Source: Candidatus Poseidoniales archaeon
Lineage (GTDB): Archaea; Thermoplasmatota; Poseidoniia; Poseidoniales; Thalassarchaeaceae
Direction of reading: 5' to 3'
NCBI GenBank assembly: GCA_003602595.1
Contig: QQRX01000026.1
Location: forward strand, 1-33,764
Length of the DNA stretch: 33,764 nucleotides
Of the stretch, positions 15,734-20,770 are shown in pieces. Each line of letters opens with the position of its first letter. Position 1 is the first letter of the stretch. The notes beneath the pieces are model-generated. The model was not told where the DNA came from. It did not search any database and saw nothing but the letters and a program-made list of their open reading frames with translations. Both the position numbers and the translations under genes were made by a program.

Positions 15734-17929
15734 ATGTCCGACTCTTTACCGCTTCTAATTTTGTATGGATCACAATCCGGGAACTCTGAAGAGATAGCAG
15801 TTCAAGCCGGTAAAGAAGCCGCTTCACATGGTTTGACTGCAACTGTAAAAGGAATGGATGAAACCTCAGTTACGGAAATTTCTACCAGTAACAGAGTTCT
15901 GATTTGCTGCAGTACTTGGGGAGATGGAGAACAACCAGATAATGCTGAAGAATTATGGGAAGCAGTTAATGCCGATGCTGATCTTTCTTTGGAAGGAGTA
16001 AGTTATTCCGTCTTAGCATTGGGCGATACTTCATACGATTTATTTTGTGAATCAGGGAAAGAATGGGATAATTTCTTCGAATCCAGAGGGGCAACAAGAA
16101 TCTATCAACGCGTCGACTGTGATGTTGATTATGAAGAGCCAGCAAAAATTTGGATCGATTCTACTTTACCACTTATGGCTGCGGTCGAAAGTAGTTTAGT
16201 TGAAATAATTGCTACCGATGCCTCTCTAGAGTCTGAGCCAAAACTTGATGAGGTACCGAGTAGTTCTAATGAAGAAATTGCGGACAATAATTCTGATATG
16301 GCATTAGATTCTTTCCTAGAGGCTGGAGATCGAAGTCTTACCGTATTATTTGGGTCTCAGTCTGGAAACTCAGAAGAATTAGCATCAAAAATTGTCAAAG
16401 AATCCTCTAAATACGGACTCTCGGGGACAGTTTATGATATGGATGGTTTTGATTTCAACTCTCTTTCGAACCATAAAAGAGTGTTAATAGTATGTTCAAC
16501 ATGGGGAGAAGGAGAAATGCCAGATAACGCCGAAGAGCTCTGGAAAAAGGCTAATTCGGAGAACAACCCTATTCTGAAAGGAGTAAATTTTTCTGTTCTT
16601 TCATTGGGAGATTCTAGTTATGAATTATTTTGTCAATCAGGAAAAGATTGGGATCGCCGATTTGAAGAGTTAGGAGGTAATAGACTTGTGACAAGAGTTG
16701 ATTGCGATGTAGATTATGACTCATTAGCGACTCAATGGACTATAGAGTCATTAATCCATATGTCTGCCGTAGATGGAACTGGTAGTTTCCAAGAAGATAA
16801 ATTAGATTTAATACGTAATTATGTTGATGGCTCTGATGCAGTGGGGGCAACCGGGGATGACGGTTTCAATATTCCTTCATTAATTTCAGATTATCTACAA
16901 ACAGAAATTTCAATTTTCAGATATGATCCTGAAACTAAGTCTAGAGGTAAAGACACATGGCTTTGCTCTTTACCAGGACATATGTCTATATTGGAAATTC
17001 TAAGAACTATAAAATCTTCACATGATGGAAGATTGACATTTAGAGATGGACATTGTGAAGACCCAAATACCGCTATTTCAATAAATGGAAGATTAGTTCT
17101 ACCAGGTACATTACGATTAGACACACTCCCATTAAACGATGATGGGACTATACGTTTGCGACTTGCTCCTTTACCTTGTTTTGATGTAGTTAGAGATTTA
17201 CTTGTAGATACTTGGAATCTAGAAAGAAAGCGTGAGTCCAGTAAACCGTGGATGGTTGCTGCTACTAGAGAAGGAAAAGATACCTCTCAAGGGCCAATTG
17301 GTATTATGACAAAATCTACAGCATTACATTTGCATTCAATTAAGAATTTCTCAAGTTTTCCTCTTTTACATGCATGCTCTGATGCCACTCCCTTCTCAGA
17401 AAATTATATTGGACCATCTTTGATTGTTAGTGCTTGGGCTAGAAGAAATGACCCTCGTACTTCAATAAATAAAAAATCAGAAATTGATACTTATTTATCC
17501 TCTTCGTCCGGTATCAAGGCTGAAACGGATTTATCTCCGATAAGACGCCAAAGTGCTATTTTTGATTCTATCTCAAACGCTTTACTAGACGCAAAGACTT
17601 CTTCACTGAATAGAGATTCGTTCAATGGAAGGCATGGAAAGCATGTGTGGTGGTATACTTGGTCAGTTAAAAGTAGTGGTAAAGTAAATGATACAGTTAT
17701 TTTTAGACAAGTGTTAGGTCCTTTGGGATTACTTAGTAATTTATTTTCTGGAGTCACTGCTAGAATGTTACTTGGTTTTACAAGAACAGGTGGGAACATG
17801 GTAAATGACGGATTAGGAATGGTATTGCCTCCGGCAGGAATAGGAAAAATGCCTAGACAATTCAATAAATCTGTAGGTAATCATCATGAAGTGGTAGCAA
17901 TATTTAATGAATTGGATGGTAGATTTTAG
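15734..17929 (+). CDS. Tandem flavodoxin domains fused to a cysteine-depleted SdhB-like scaffold
   Basis: 731 residues. Flavodoxin domain 1 (about 5-140) and domain 2 (about 198-340) both have the FMN phosphate loop GSQSGNSEE and the flavin loops CSTWG(D/E)GE and LGD(T/S)SY, like the FMN domain of sulfite reductase flavoprotein. They resemble each other closely, so one arose by duplication. From about 390 the protein follows the order of succinate dehydrogenase iron-sulfur subunit B: FRYDPE, LTFRDG, SINGR, DVVRDLLVD, KPW, YIGPSLIVSAW. Aligned by eye with SdhB, almost all cluster ligands are gone: the [2Fe-2S] cysteines, three of four in the CxxCxxC..C group (only Cys548 kept) and the whole third group. 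A C-terminal region of about 110 residues is unrecognised. ATG 15734 is chosen for GGTGTTACG before it. The stop overlaps the next start by one base. Confidence 0.8.
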   Translation: MSDSLPLLILYGSQSGNSEEIAVQAGKEAASHGLTATVKGMDETSVTEISTSNRVLICCSTWGDGEQPDNAEELWEAVNADADLSLEGVSYSVLALGDTSYDLFCESGKEWDNFFESRGATRIYQRVDCDVDYEEPAKIWIDSTLPLMAAVESSLVEIIATDASLESEPKLDEVPSSSNEEIADNNSDMALDSFLEAGDRSLTVLFGSQSGNSEELASKIVKESSKYGLSGTVYDMDGFDFNSLSNHKRVLIVCSTWGEGEMPDNAEELWKKANSENNPILKGVNFSVLSLGDSSYELFCQSGKDWDRRFEELGGNRLVTRVDCDVDYDSLATQWTIESLIHMSAVDGTGSFQEDKLDLIRNYVDGSDAVGATGDDGFNIPSLISDYLQTEISIFRYDPETKSRGKDTWLCSLPGHMSILEILRTIKSSHDGRLTFRDGHCEDPNTAISINGRLVLPGTLRLDTLPLNDDGTIRLRLAPLPCFDVVRDLLVDTWNLERKRESSKPWMVAATREGKDTSQGPIGIMTKSTALHLHSIKNFSSFPLLHACSDATPFSENYIGPSLIVSAWARRNDPRTSINKKSEIDTYLSSSSGIKAETDLSPIRRQSAIFDSISNALLDAKTSSLNRDSFNGRHGKHVWWYTWSVKSSGKVNDTVIFRQVLGPLGLLSNLFSGVTARMLLGFTRTGGNMVNDGLGMVLPPAGIGKMPRQFNKSVGNHHEVVAIFNELDGRF

Positions 17930-18789
17930 TGCCCTTAAAGTATGCATATCATCCAGGTAATGTCTCACATAGCAGTGCACCAGAAGTTAGTGATACTATT
18001 TTTCCAATAGCCAGATCTTTGAATATTGAATTAGTATCATTAGATGGCGCAACTAGTTGTGGAGCAGGAATAATACGTCAGGCAAACAAAAGACTACAGT
18101 TAACTTTGAATGCACGTACATTTGCTATGGCAGAGAATCTTGGATTAGATATAATCACTCCTTGCGCTACTACATCTGGAAACTTAAATGAAGATTTACA
18201 AACTCTGAAAGACAATCCAATTTTACTTGCAGAAGTAAATACGATATTGAATAAGACTTGTGGTTTACAATTCAATTGCTCCATAAAAGTTCATCACTTA
18301 CTTCATGTCTTAGTTGATGAAGTGGGTCTAGAAAAAGTATCATCGATGGTAAAAAATCCTATAAATTTCAATATTGCAGGTTATTATGGGCCTAATATGC
18401 AACAATTAGGTATGTGTGGAGGAGATAATCCTTATGATCCATCATATCTTGAAAGATTAATCACATCAGTAGGAGGTAACCCTGTTGATTGGGATAGTCG
18501 AACTCAAAGTGTCGGAGCTCCCGGTTTACTCTCTGAAGAACCTACGGTATTGAAGCAATCTGCAAATGTGATTATGGATGCTAAAGATGAAGGGGCAGAA
18601 ATTATTGTCAGTGCCTGTAATCTTTCTCATACAGTACTTGATGTCTATCAAGGCAAGGCATCCAGACAAGTTAATTATCCAATTAATATGCCCATAATCC
18701 ACATGACGGAAATGCTAGATTTTGCCTTTGGACATCATAATACCAGACTTGCTCAGTTAAAGACTAGGATTGCAGTAATTGGTAATTAA
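17929..18789 (+). CDS. HdrB/SdhE-like CCG-domain protein with most cluster cysteines lost
   Basis: 286 residues, the length of HdrB. Two CCG-type halves are recognisable: YHPGN, TSCGAG, TPCATT, then YYGPN, VDWDSRTQSVGAPG and SACNLS. In HdrB, SdhE and the TfrB C-terminus these positions carry ten cysteines that bind two non-cubane [4Fe-4S] clusters. Here they read N11, S43-C44, C79/T82, P155, S194-V195 and C230/S233, so only three remain. The scaffold residues around them are kept, which suggests a preserved fold without the clusters. Its GTG start overlaps the upstream stop (TAGTG), so it is translationally coupled to the flavodoxin/SdhB-like protein, the same pairing as SdhB with SdhE or within TfrB. 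It likely forms a complex with it; the activity is unknown. Confidence 0.8.
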   Translation: MPLKYAYHPGNVSHSSAPEVSDTIFPIARSLNIELVSLDGATSCGAGIIRQANKRLQLTLNARTFAMAENLGLDIITPCATTSGNLNEDLQTLKDNPILLAEVNTILNKTCGLQFNCSIKVHHLLHVLVDEVGLEKVSSMVKNPINFNIAGYYGPNMQQLGMCGGDNPYDPSYLERLITSVGGNPVDWDSRTQSVGAPGLLSEEPTVLKQSANVIMDAKDEGAEIIVSACNLSHTVLDVYQGKASRQVNYPINMPIIHMTEMLDFAFGHHNTRLAQLKTRIAVIGN

Positions 18790-18790
18790 T

Positions 18791-20530
18791 TTAATCGAAC
18801 TCGTCTAAACCTCTTTGGCCCACAGAACGAAATTTTTCTAACTTAATTCTATTAATTGTCTCTTTTTCCATTTTCACTTTACTTTCGTCAAATTCAACTA
18901 CCGTAGGGCCGTGTGAATCTTTTTCTCTCTGGAGAAATTCTGATGCAGTTATTATCTTACCTTCACTTTTGATTTTAAAATTATTTAATTTATTATCGCC
19001 AATATGATTTGATAAAGACAATCTCCTCTTGACTCTCTGAACAGCTTTGTGCATATTCCTTTCCCTCTTTAATGCTGCAGATCTAGCATTCTCGTCTCTT
19101 GTCCCTTCAGCAATCAATACGACAATCTCTCCTTCTCTCTGTCTTCCAGTCCTACCTCTTCTTTGTATAGTTCTTGTTTCACTAGAAACTGGTTCATAAA
19201 ATATCACCAAATCTGCTGTTGGAATATCTAATCCTTCTTCTCCTACTGAGGTAGAAATAAGAACATTCGCAGTACCGTTCCTAAATTCTTCCAATCTTTT
19301 TATCTGCTCTTTGGGTTTCAAACCTTCGCCACTAGATCTATTGGTCTGACCTATGAATTGTATGGCTCGAGCATCTTTTAAATCTCTCATTGCTTCATCC
19401 AATACAGTAATGGTATCTCTAAAACTTGCAAAAATTATTATTTTACTATCTAGATTTCTTCTCAATCTCTCTCTAACCAACCGTCTTACTGCACCCACTT
19501 TTGAGTGAATCTCATTCTTCTTCTTAATTTCTACCAGAAGCTTTTGAATCCTATTGTCTCGCATGAAATTTCTGACAGATTTATTACTATTCTCTTTTTC
19601 TAACCTATTTAGAAATTCTCTTGAAGCAGCGGTTCCTTGACAAAGCATATGATTGATTAGATGGTGCAATCTCATTGCGATACCAATCTGGGATATTGAA
19701 GAATATGCACTTTTTTTACCTTTGTTGATGGCCCTTTTAGCTCTATCCATTGCGTTTGACAGTCCTATGTGATTAATTTCTCCGGGCATTATGTATATCC
19801 CTAACCTTCGTTCTCGATCCACAATTCCTTTTTGCCATAGTATCAATGGATTAGTAAGTACTAGTATTTCTTCAGGAACATTGACTTTTATTTCTTGAAC
19901 TTCTAAATTTGATAAATATCCAGATATCATTGGATCTTCAGGAGTCCTAAGATGTATTCTTTCTAAATTTAGATTTTTACATATTTCTTCAACCTGCGAA
20001 ATATTTGATCCTGGACTTGCGGTCATGCCAAGTATCAATGGATTTAGAGATTTTGAATTATATAATCTTCCAACCTGAGCCATTGCATGCTCTCCTGTGC
20101 AATGATGGGCTTCATCTAAAATTACTAATGAATATTCTTCAATCCTAAGAATCTCATTAATTATATCATTCTTTACTACTTGAGGAGTAGCTACAACTAT
20201 TCTAGAAGATAACCACATCTCCTCCCTTTTGTTTACCATATTCTGTCCTGTTATTGATACAGGCTTGATTTTTTCCAAAGCTAGAGTTTTATTTATCCCT
20301 TTTAAGTGCTGATTTACTAGTGCAACAGTAGGGGCTATTAGTAGAATCTTTCCTTCTTTCTCAATCAATTTTTCTGCAATTAGCATCCATGCTACCGCAG
20401 TCTTTCCTGCGGCAGTAGGTAAAATTAACAACATTGACCCAGCCAACGATTCATTAACAGCATCTAATTGATAAGCACGAGCTTCAACTGCATCTGATAC
20501 CAAGTTAACATGCTGTATCGTGGAGTACAT
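18791..20530 (-). CDS. hef: Hef/FANCM-type DNA helicase, helicase-only form
   Basis: 579 residues from the ATG at 20528-20530. Superfamily 2 motifs are in order: Walker A PTAAGKT (K43), motif Ia APTVALVNQH, DEAH at about 139-142, motif III GMTASPGS, motif V STSVGEEGLDIP and motif VI QRRGRTGR at about 465-472, separated by the helical insertion typical of Hef/Mph1/FANCM. This family remodels stalled replication forks and other branched DNA. Euryarchaeal Hef often carries a C-terminal ERCC4 nuclease and HhH; here the protein ends about 100 residues after motif VI in a charged tail, so those are missing. A longer frame reaches 20656, but the residues before MYSTIQHV do not look conserved and would run through the intergenic RNA region. 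It ends one base from the convergent HdrB-like gene. Confidence 0.85.
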   Translation of the reverse strand: MYSTIQHVNLVSDAVEARAYQLDAVNESLAGSMLLILPTAAGKTAVAWMLIAEKLIEKEGKILLIAPTVALVNQHLKGINKTLALEKIKPVSITGQNMVNKREEMWLSSRIVVATPQVVKNDIINEILRIEEYSLVILDEAHHCTGEHAMAQVGRLYNSKSLNPLILGMTASPGSNISQVEEICKNLNLERIHLRTPEDPMISGYLSNLEVQEIKVNVPEEILVLTNPLILWQKGIVDRERRLGIYIMPGEINHIGLSNAMDRAKRAINKGKKSAYSSISQIGIAMRLHHLINHMLCQGTAASREFLNRLEKENSNKSVRNFMRDNRIQKLLVEIKKKNEIHSKVGAVRRLVRERLRRNLDSKIIIFASFRDTITVLDEAMRDLKDARAIQFIGQTNRSSGEGLKPKEQIKRLEEFRNGTANVLISTSVGEEGLDIPTADLVIFYEPVSSETRTIQRRGRTGRQREGEIVVLIAEGTRDENARSAALKRERNMHKAVQRVKRRLSLSNHIGDNKLNNFKIKSEGKIITASEFLQREKDSHGPTVVEFDESKVKMEKETINRIKLEKFRSVGQRGLDEFD

Positions 20531-20557
20531 GAGTTGCCATGTTAAGAGACATAGTTC

Positions 20558-20566
20558 AAAATATTT
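20558..20566 (-). promoter_or_regulatory. Possible TATA box for the helicase gene
   Basis: Read on the minus strand, AAATATTTT lies about 28-36 bases before the ATG at 20530. This supports the shorter start and a leaderless or very short leader. Confidence 0.3.
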
Positions 20567-20598
20567 GCACTTGTAAAATGTTAAAATCATCACATCAG

Positions 20599-20605
20599 TA
20601 TAATG
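20599..20605 (+). promoter_or_regulatory. Possible TATA box for the leader RNA / ribosomal cluster
   Basis: TATAATG lies about 40 bases before the structured region that starts near 20641. A second AT-rich site, GATAAATTG at about 20780-20788, lies 28 bases before the uL3 start and could be an alternative promoter that skips the leader. Confidence 0.25.
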
Positions 20606-20640
20606 TTTAACCCCCGATTTATTCAAATAGGGTATGTTAG

Positions 20641-20770
20641 TCGGAAGGCCGCTCACAACGTGAGATACCAGACACCATGGGCTCTGTAAAACATCCCAAT
20701 TGTCAGTTTTACGCTCGTAAAACTGGGAAAAGTGTCACGGTGTCTCCTTTACGTATTGAGCCCATTTGCC
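20641..20770 (+). ncRNA. Candidate structured leader RNA upstream of the ribosomal cluster
   Basis: Dense complementary segments lie between the divergent helicase and uL3. Stem A: GAGATACC 20662-20669 with GGTGTCTC 20739-20746 (one G.U); GACACC 20671-20676 competes for the same GGTGTC. Stem B: ATGGGCTC 20677-20684 with GAGCCCAT 20758-20765, perfect 8 bp. Stem A and stem B interleave, so they form either an H-type pseudoknot (7-nt and about 11-nt loops) or two exclusive states. Hairpin C: CAGTTTTAC-GCTC-GTAAAACTG 20704-20725, 9 bp. A second GTAAAAC at 20686-20692 can steal GTTTTAC 20706-20712 from it. Hairpin D: CTCAC-AAC-GTGAG 20652-20664, which overlaps stem A. Such competing helices are typical of regulatory leaders; r-protein autocontrol is plausible but not shown. 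No known family recognised. Confidence 0.5.

Follow-up and report, generated by a model that had tools for sequence, protein, structure and literature searches.

Two adjacent genes of Poseidoniales (Marine Group II) archaea, here termed P1 and P2, encode relatives of SdhB and HdrB/SdhE in which the cysteines that hold the iron–sulfur clusters have been lost step by step from both partners, while purifying selection has kept the proteins themselves. P1 additionally carries flavodoxin domains in front of its SdhB-like part, and at its N-terminus flavodoxin and ferredoxin replace each other again and again among close relatives. The analysis started from a stretch of 33,764 nucleotides of contig QQRX01000026.1 from a Candidatus Poseidoniales archaeon, referred to as the window, with the following features:

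15734–17929, plus strand: P1, flavodoxin (Fld-a)–flavodoxin (Fld-b)–cluster-less SdhB-like protein, 731 aa (open frame; Pfam/NCBIfam matches; dN/dS)
15758–16138, plus strand: Fld-a, CysJ-type flavodoxin domain of P1 (PF00258 match; in many relatives a [4Fe-4S] ferredoxin, Fer4_13, at the same place)
16343–16717, plus strand: Fld-b, CysJ-type flavodoxin domain of P1 (PF00258 match; alignments)
16895–17926, plus strand: SdhB-like region of P1, 0/12 Fe-S ligands (Fer2_3 match at 16907–17218; ligand alignment; hhalign)
17929–18789, plus strand: P2, HdrB/SdhE-like protein, 286 aa, 3/10 cluster ligands, namely C44, C79 and C230 (TIGR03288; AF2/Foldseek; ligand alignment)
18163–18165, plus strand: codon of the invariant C79, first Cys of the former N-terminal CxxC of HdrB (alignment)
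18616–18618, plus strand: codon of the invariant C230, the equivalent first Cys of the former C-terminal CxxC of HdrB (alignment)

The P1 frame runs uninterrupted from an ATG at 15734 to a stop codon ending at 17929, the one base that it shares with P2. A preliminary description of this DNA had read the locus as two flavodoxin domains before an SdhB-like region, followed by an overlapping HdrB/SdhE-like gene, and profile searches bear this out for every part. Two Flavodoxin_1 domains were recognized in P1 (Pfam, E 9.6e-65), and they match the CysJ structure 1ykg (E 4.9e-28). Fld-b, with the FMN-loop motifs GSQ.GN, STWGEG, GD..Y and CDVD invariant among 19 aligned members, occurs in all classified members but one, which is cut by a contig end. 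Among the eight genomes that were examined first, six have no flavodoxins outside P1, and the genome of the window (80% complete), with both its copies inside P1, belongs to these six. Residues 392–494 of P1 are a Fer2_3 domain that passes the curated Pfam cut-off (E 4.7e-9), and residues 389–593 match the NCBIfam SdhB/FrdB models with a best E of 4e-13, though a score of 49 bits, where 228 are required, is far under the models' own thresholds. The homology to the Fer2_3 and helical domains of SdhB/FrdB thus continues along the chain; by hhalign the region aligns to cluster-bearing SdhB over 282 columns, it shares a C-terminal extension with the SdhB proteins of SdhA-SdhB-SdhE operons, and it is predicted to fold as FrdB/SdhB (TM about 0.8 by target). 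P2 is covered over its full length by the HdrB model TIGR03288 (E 3e-38) and also matches the SdhE model (E 1e-29), both below the respective cut-offs, and its predicted structure (AF2, pLDDT 91) has HdrB as the closest PDB fold (Foldseek, TM 0.89 to HdrB structures, 27% identity). A flavodoxin-SdhB'-HdrB' unit was modelled from a relative with P1 and P2 in frame, the TGA being bridged for the sake of the model only, and the resulting structure (pLDDT 78) matches HdrB, FrdB/SdhB and the CysJ flavodoxin.

Ligand positions were scored by alignment to relatives that have kept their clusters. In P1 of the window all twelve ligands of the SdhB [2Fe-2S], [4Fe-4S] and [3Fe-4S] clusters are replaced (0/12), as the preliminary description had noticed for nearly all of them; other Poseidoniales have sporadic cysteines only in these columns, and the alignments of close relatives show no SdhB cysteines kept at other positions. 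P2 retains C44, C79 and C230, so the earlier count of seven lost out of ten was exact, and in place of the two CCG sites with ten cysteines that define HdrB/SdhE no complete site is left in the window. Of 50 members from across the order, eight have the N-terminal HdrB site complete and the others are down to one or two cysteines out of five there; the C-terminal site is complete in none, C230 alone being kept. C79 and C230, which occupy equivalent positions in the two halves of P2, are invariant in 50/50 Poseidoniales and 7/7 outgroup proteins. It might be asked whether the substituted sites bind something else, zinc for example or a cluster ligated by residues other than cysteine, in which case the proteins would not be metal-free. 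Two replacements in P1, S549 and E597, are indeed invariant among the 19 members aligned, but most ligand positions are now Gly, Phe, Leu, Thr or Ile or vary freely and the [2Fe-2S] ligands are wholly lost, which makes this reading very improbable.

The order of events was read from a tree rooted with Thermoplasmatota SdhA-SdhB-SdhE proteins, for which most ligand columns were masked. In both families the early branches (g7 in one; g16, g17, g19, g21 and g22 in the other) include members with a complete N-terminal HdrB site, and the loss of this cluster happened twice in parallel, once per family. All losses counted on P2 run toward fewer Fe-S ligands, and no member sampled has the SdhB clusters or the C-terminal HdrB cluster. 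On this tree, the iron-binding residues have disappeared in steps.

Random decay does not account for these losses. Of 293 Poseidoniales genomes 255 encode the pair, among them all 35 near-complete ones, nearly always as a single copy, the few second matches being mostly genes split across contigs. The frames are intact across the order, no frameshifts were seen, and the loci that were compared share the gene order thermosome–P1–P2–helicase (minus strand)–L3–L4. Between congeners whose synonymous sites are unsaturated, dN/dS is 0.04–0.13 in P2 and the SdhB-like region, with about 0.05–0.08 in the latter, as expected for a pair under purifying selection. The preliminary description had argued against decay from the intact frames, and this argument is strengthened by the selection data and by the near-complete genomes. 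The sole point in favour of pseudogenes is the loss of ligand residues itself; with the presence in near-complete genomes and the low dN/dS against it, that reading was rejected and is practically untenable.

Several other properties of the locus were recorded. In one genome (G005, L037:4871-7834) a deletion fuses P1 and P2 in frame to a protein of 987 aa in which the conserved C-terminal tail of P1 is lost. Gene fusion was not retained as a line of evidence, as G005 is the only case and a second apparent fusion (G219, L108) depends on an ambiguous base at the stop. The helicase after P2 (window 18791–20656) is DEAD/Hef-like and lacks the nuclease. Several relatives from the other family have an ERCC4-type nuclease-like protein as a separate ORF between P2 and the helicase (L047:7997-8848, L048:6066-6797, L049:4873-5649, L051:8438-9238), and a Hef protein may have been split here, its nuclease being lost or moved.

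The origin of the pair can be placed within the phylum. Other Thermoplasmatota have an SdhA-SdhB-SdhE arrangement with all ligands, the SdhA of which was confirmed by Pfam in one locus (L097), and its SdhB and SdhE align to the C-terminal part of P1 and to P2. These full-length alignments and the same two-gene order, which also link the pair to the SdhA-SdhB-SdhE succinate dehydrogenases/fumarate reductases, including 8-methylmenaquinol:fumarate reductase and TfrB, identify it as a descendant of the SdhB–SdhE half of such a reductase. P1/P2 differ from these enzymes in the missing SdhA, in the ligand counts of 0/12 and 3/10 and in the flavodoxin or ferredoxin domains in front. An SdhA-like or other substrate subunit was not found beside the pair in the conserved neighbourhood. 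An SdhA does exist elsewhere in the window's genome, where the preliminary description had advised looking for it, and it belongs to a genuine SdhA-SdhB-anchor operon with all cysteines present and separate from the pair; P1/P2 are therefore not complex II, and this assignment was rejected. Canonical complex II has been reported in Marine Group II archaea (PMC6336850). The pair is absent from the sampled genomes of Marine Group III, the sister group. With HdrB of the CoB-CoM heterodisulfide reductase P2 shares the predicted fold and the cluster cysteines C79 and C230, whereas the window species has neither a complete CCG site nor HdrA and HdrC. Outside the archaea, the best P2 relatives in the genome scan were HdrB-like proteins of SAR202/Dehalococcoidia marine bacteria with 35–39% identity (L216-L222). 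An uncharacterised Helicobacter pylori protein (PDB 3kwl) matches the predicted fold over the SdhB-like and HdrB-like parts (TM 0.67 by target), and its sequence weakly resembles the HdrB part (E 0.004); unlike P1/P2 it is a single chain without flavodoxins, possibly a further example of an altered SdhB–HdrB protein.

The N-terminus of P1 is the most changeable part of the system. It is a [4Fe-4S] ferredoxin in 23 of 49 loci (typed as Fer4_13 in the three that were scanned), a flavodoxin as in the window in another 23, and neither in three. The gene tree calls for 11–13 changes between the ferredoxin and flavodoxin states, which differ even inside single genera, and the additional flavodoxin has at least four separate origins, in each case being related to Fld-b domains from within its own protein family. 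The suggestion of the preliminary description that flavins had taken the place of the clusters can therefore be upheld in part: flavodoxin does repeatedly swap with the N-terminal ferredoxin, but the flavodoxins are not simple substitutes for the SdhB and HdrB clusters, because ferredoxin-bearing relatives that have the N-terminal HdrB cluster also lack the SdhB and C-terminal HdrB clusters. An intact N-terminal HdrB site goes together with a ferredoxin-type P1 in 8/8 cases, which are phylogenetically not independent. In iron-limited phytoplankton, flavodoxin replaces ferredoxin as partner of the NADP reductase. P1 resembles this case in that flavodoxin stands in for ferredoxin as a possible partner of such a reductase, and differs from it in exchanging a fused domain within one gene, many times.

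Iron scarcity would fit as the driver of this exchange, in line with the iron-sparing role in iron-poor sea water that the preliminary description had suggested. The alternative that it follows oxygen or reactive-oxygen stress, or is plain domain shuffling between a reductase and P1 without an iron-sparing benefit, is unlikely but deserves attention: domain copies appear to move between the two proteins, the states are mixed within genera, and the names of the metagenome-assembled genomes show no clear habitat pattern for ferredoxin- versus flavodoxin-type P1. It is harder to reconcile with the uniform direction of the losses on P2, and a hint at iron comes from stand-alone flavodoxins of the same type that adjoin heme/iron uptake genes. 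Specifically, these CysJ-type flavodoxins lie next to a PNPOx/CREG plus DUF2470 protein (HugZ-like, of the heme-utilisation type; L149:1572-5501, L258:2021-6286, L261:270-4500, L257:2190-3514), and in L149, L258 and L261 both genes are within an apparent heme/siderophore uptake operon with binding protein, permease and ATPase. The stand-alone flavodoxins beside the HugZ-like protein may donate electrons for heme-iron release.

A candidate partner of P1 is a CysJ-type FAD/NADPH reductase, which is encoded in 53 of 55 genomes and in 18/18 near-complete ones. CysJ, the flavoprotein of NADPH-sulfite reductase, unites FMN and FAD/NADPH domains in one chain and has a hemoprotein partner. Here, similar flavodoxin domains sit on the SdhB-like protein, and a separate FAD/NADPH protein matches the rest of CysJ (E 8e-115); in the window's genome it is a solo reductase outside the P1/P2 operon (contig C23, L306:1580-2878). 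No sulfite reductase hemoprotein (NIR_SIR) was found in any of eight genomes, and a sulfite reductase was therefore rejected. Whether the reductase has its own flavodoxin depends on the type of P1: this is the case in none of 28 genomes with a ferredoxin–flavodoxin P1, in 12 of 23 with two flavodoxins and in 6/6 with Fld-b as the only such domain (Fisher p 1.5e-7), where part of the states was assigned by frame length rather than by reading and the reductase–flavodoxin fusion of G003 was reconstructed across two contig ends. In kinship-independent pairs the contrast is about 4.7 versus 0, with a borderline median p of 0.06. The reductase flavodoxins interleave with Fld-a of P1 in three parts of the tree, as if the flavodoxin module moved between the two proteins, and an apparent remnant linker in the reductase of a congener (L309) suggests that its flavodoxin was recently deleted. 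Because it covaries with the P1 type and its flavodoxin interleaves with the first one of P1, the reductase is the likely electron donor to P1. Marine Group III genomes contain the solo reductase despite the absence of P1/P2, and it must therefore serve other partners too.

The scheme that we prefer, with confidence somewhat short of even, derives P1 and P2 from the SdhB and SdhE halves of an ancient reductase of the SdhA-SdhB-SdhE type. This enzyme would have given up SdhA and, stepwise, its clusters, and would have been rewired to NADPH. Electrons would pass from NADPH to the FAD of the separate CysJ-type reductase, from there to a one-electron module (Fld-a in the window, the [4Fe-4S] ferredoxin in many relatives, or a reductase-fused flavodoxin) and on to the FMN presumably bound by Fld-b. 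The SdhB'–HdrB' scaffold, now cluster-less, would position Fld-b at the former substrate pocket of HdrB, and there the invariant C79 and C230 would act on a thiol/disulfide substrate; in the version of the window the chain would require no iron. That the substrate is a disulfide at C79/C230 is a guess and the weakest step. To our knowledge, two-electron chemistry at a cluster-less cysteine pair has no direct precedent in HdrB, and this counts against the proposal. The absence of the SdhB relay clusters and of the C-terminal HdrB site in every member, together with the lack of a substrate subunit close by, could also be taken to mean that P1/P2 are a redox-coupled regulator or docking scaffold, for instance a sensor of the flavodoxin/ferredoxin pool, with the SdhB/HdrB fold serving only as a binding platform without HdrB' catalysis. 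We consider this a minority prospect: C79 and C230 have stayed invariant although other ligands vanished, the eight members with a complete N-terminal HdrB site suggest redox chemistry of P2, and the whole chain is strongly constrained.

The P1/P2 locus has been listed earlier by annotation only (PMC6741140), and in open-access papers we came across no account of the lost clusters or of the exchange of fused domains. Our analysis corrects annotations that read the locus as complex II and sulfite reductase. It is possible, if rather doubtful, that the pair works as a thiol/disulfide oxidoreductase driven by NADPH and free of iron, the FMN domains having functionally taken over from the Fe-S clusters of a complex II/heterodisulfide reductase scaffold, and that the repeated independent ferredoxin-to-flavodoxin change across Marine Group II has recorded iron or oxygen stress in the genomes. 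For these abundant archaea of the surface ocean, P1/P2 are a core gene pair whose natural variants lead, through intermediates, from SdhB–SdhE with all clusters to a form that has no complete Fe-S site, and the proteins of sister species make the replacement of an Fe-S relay by flavins, and its driver, directly testable.
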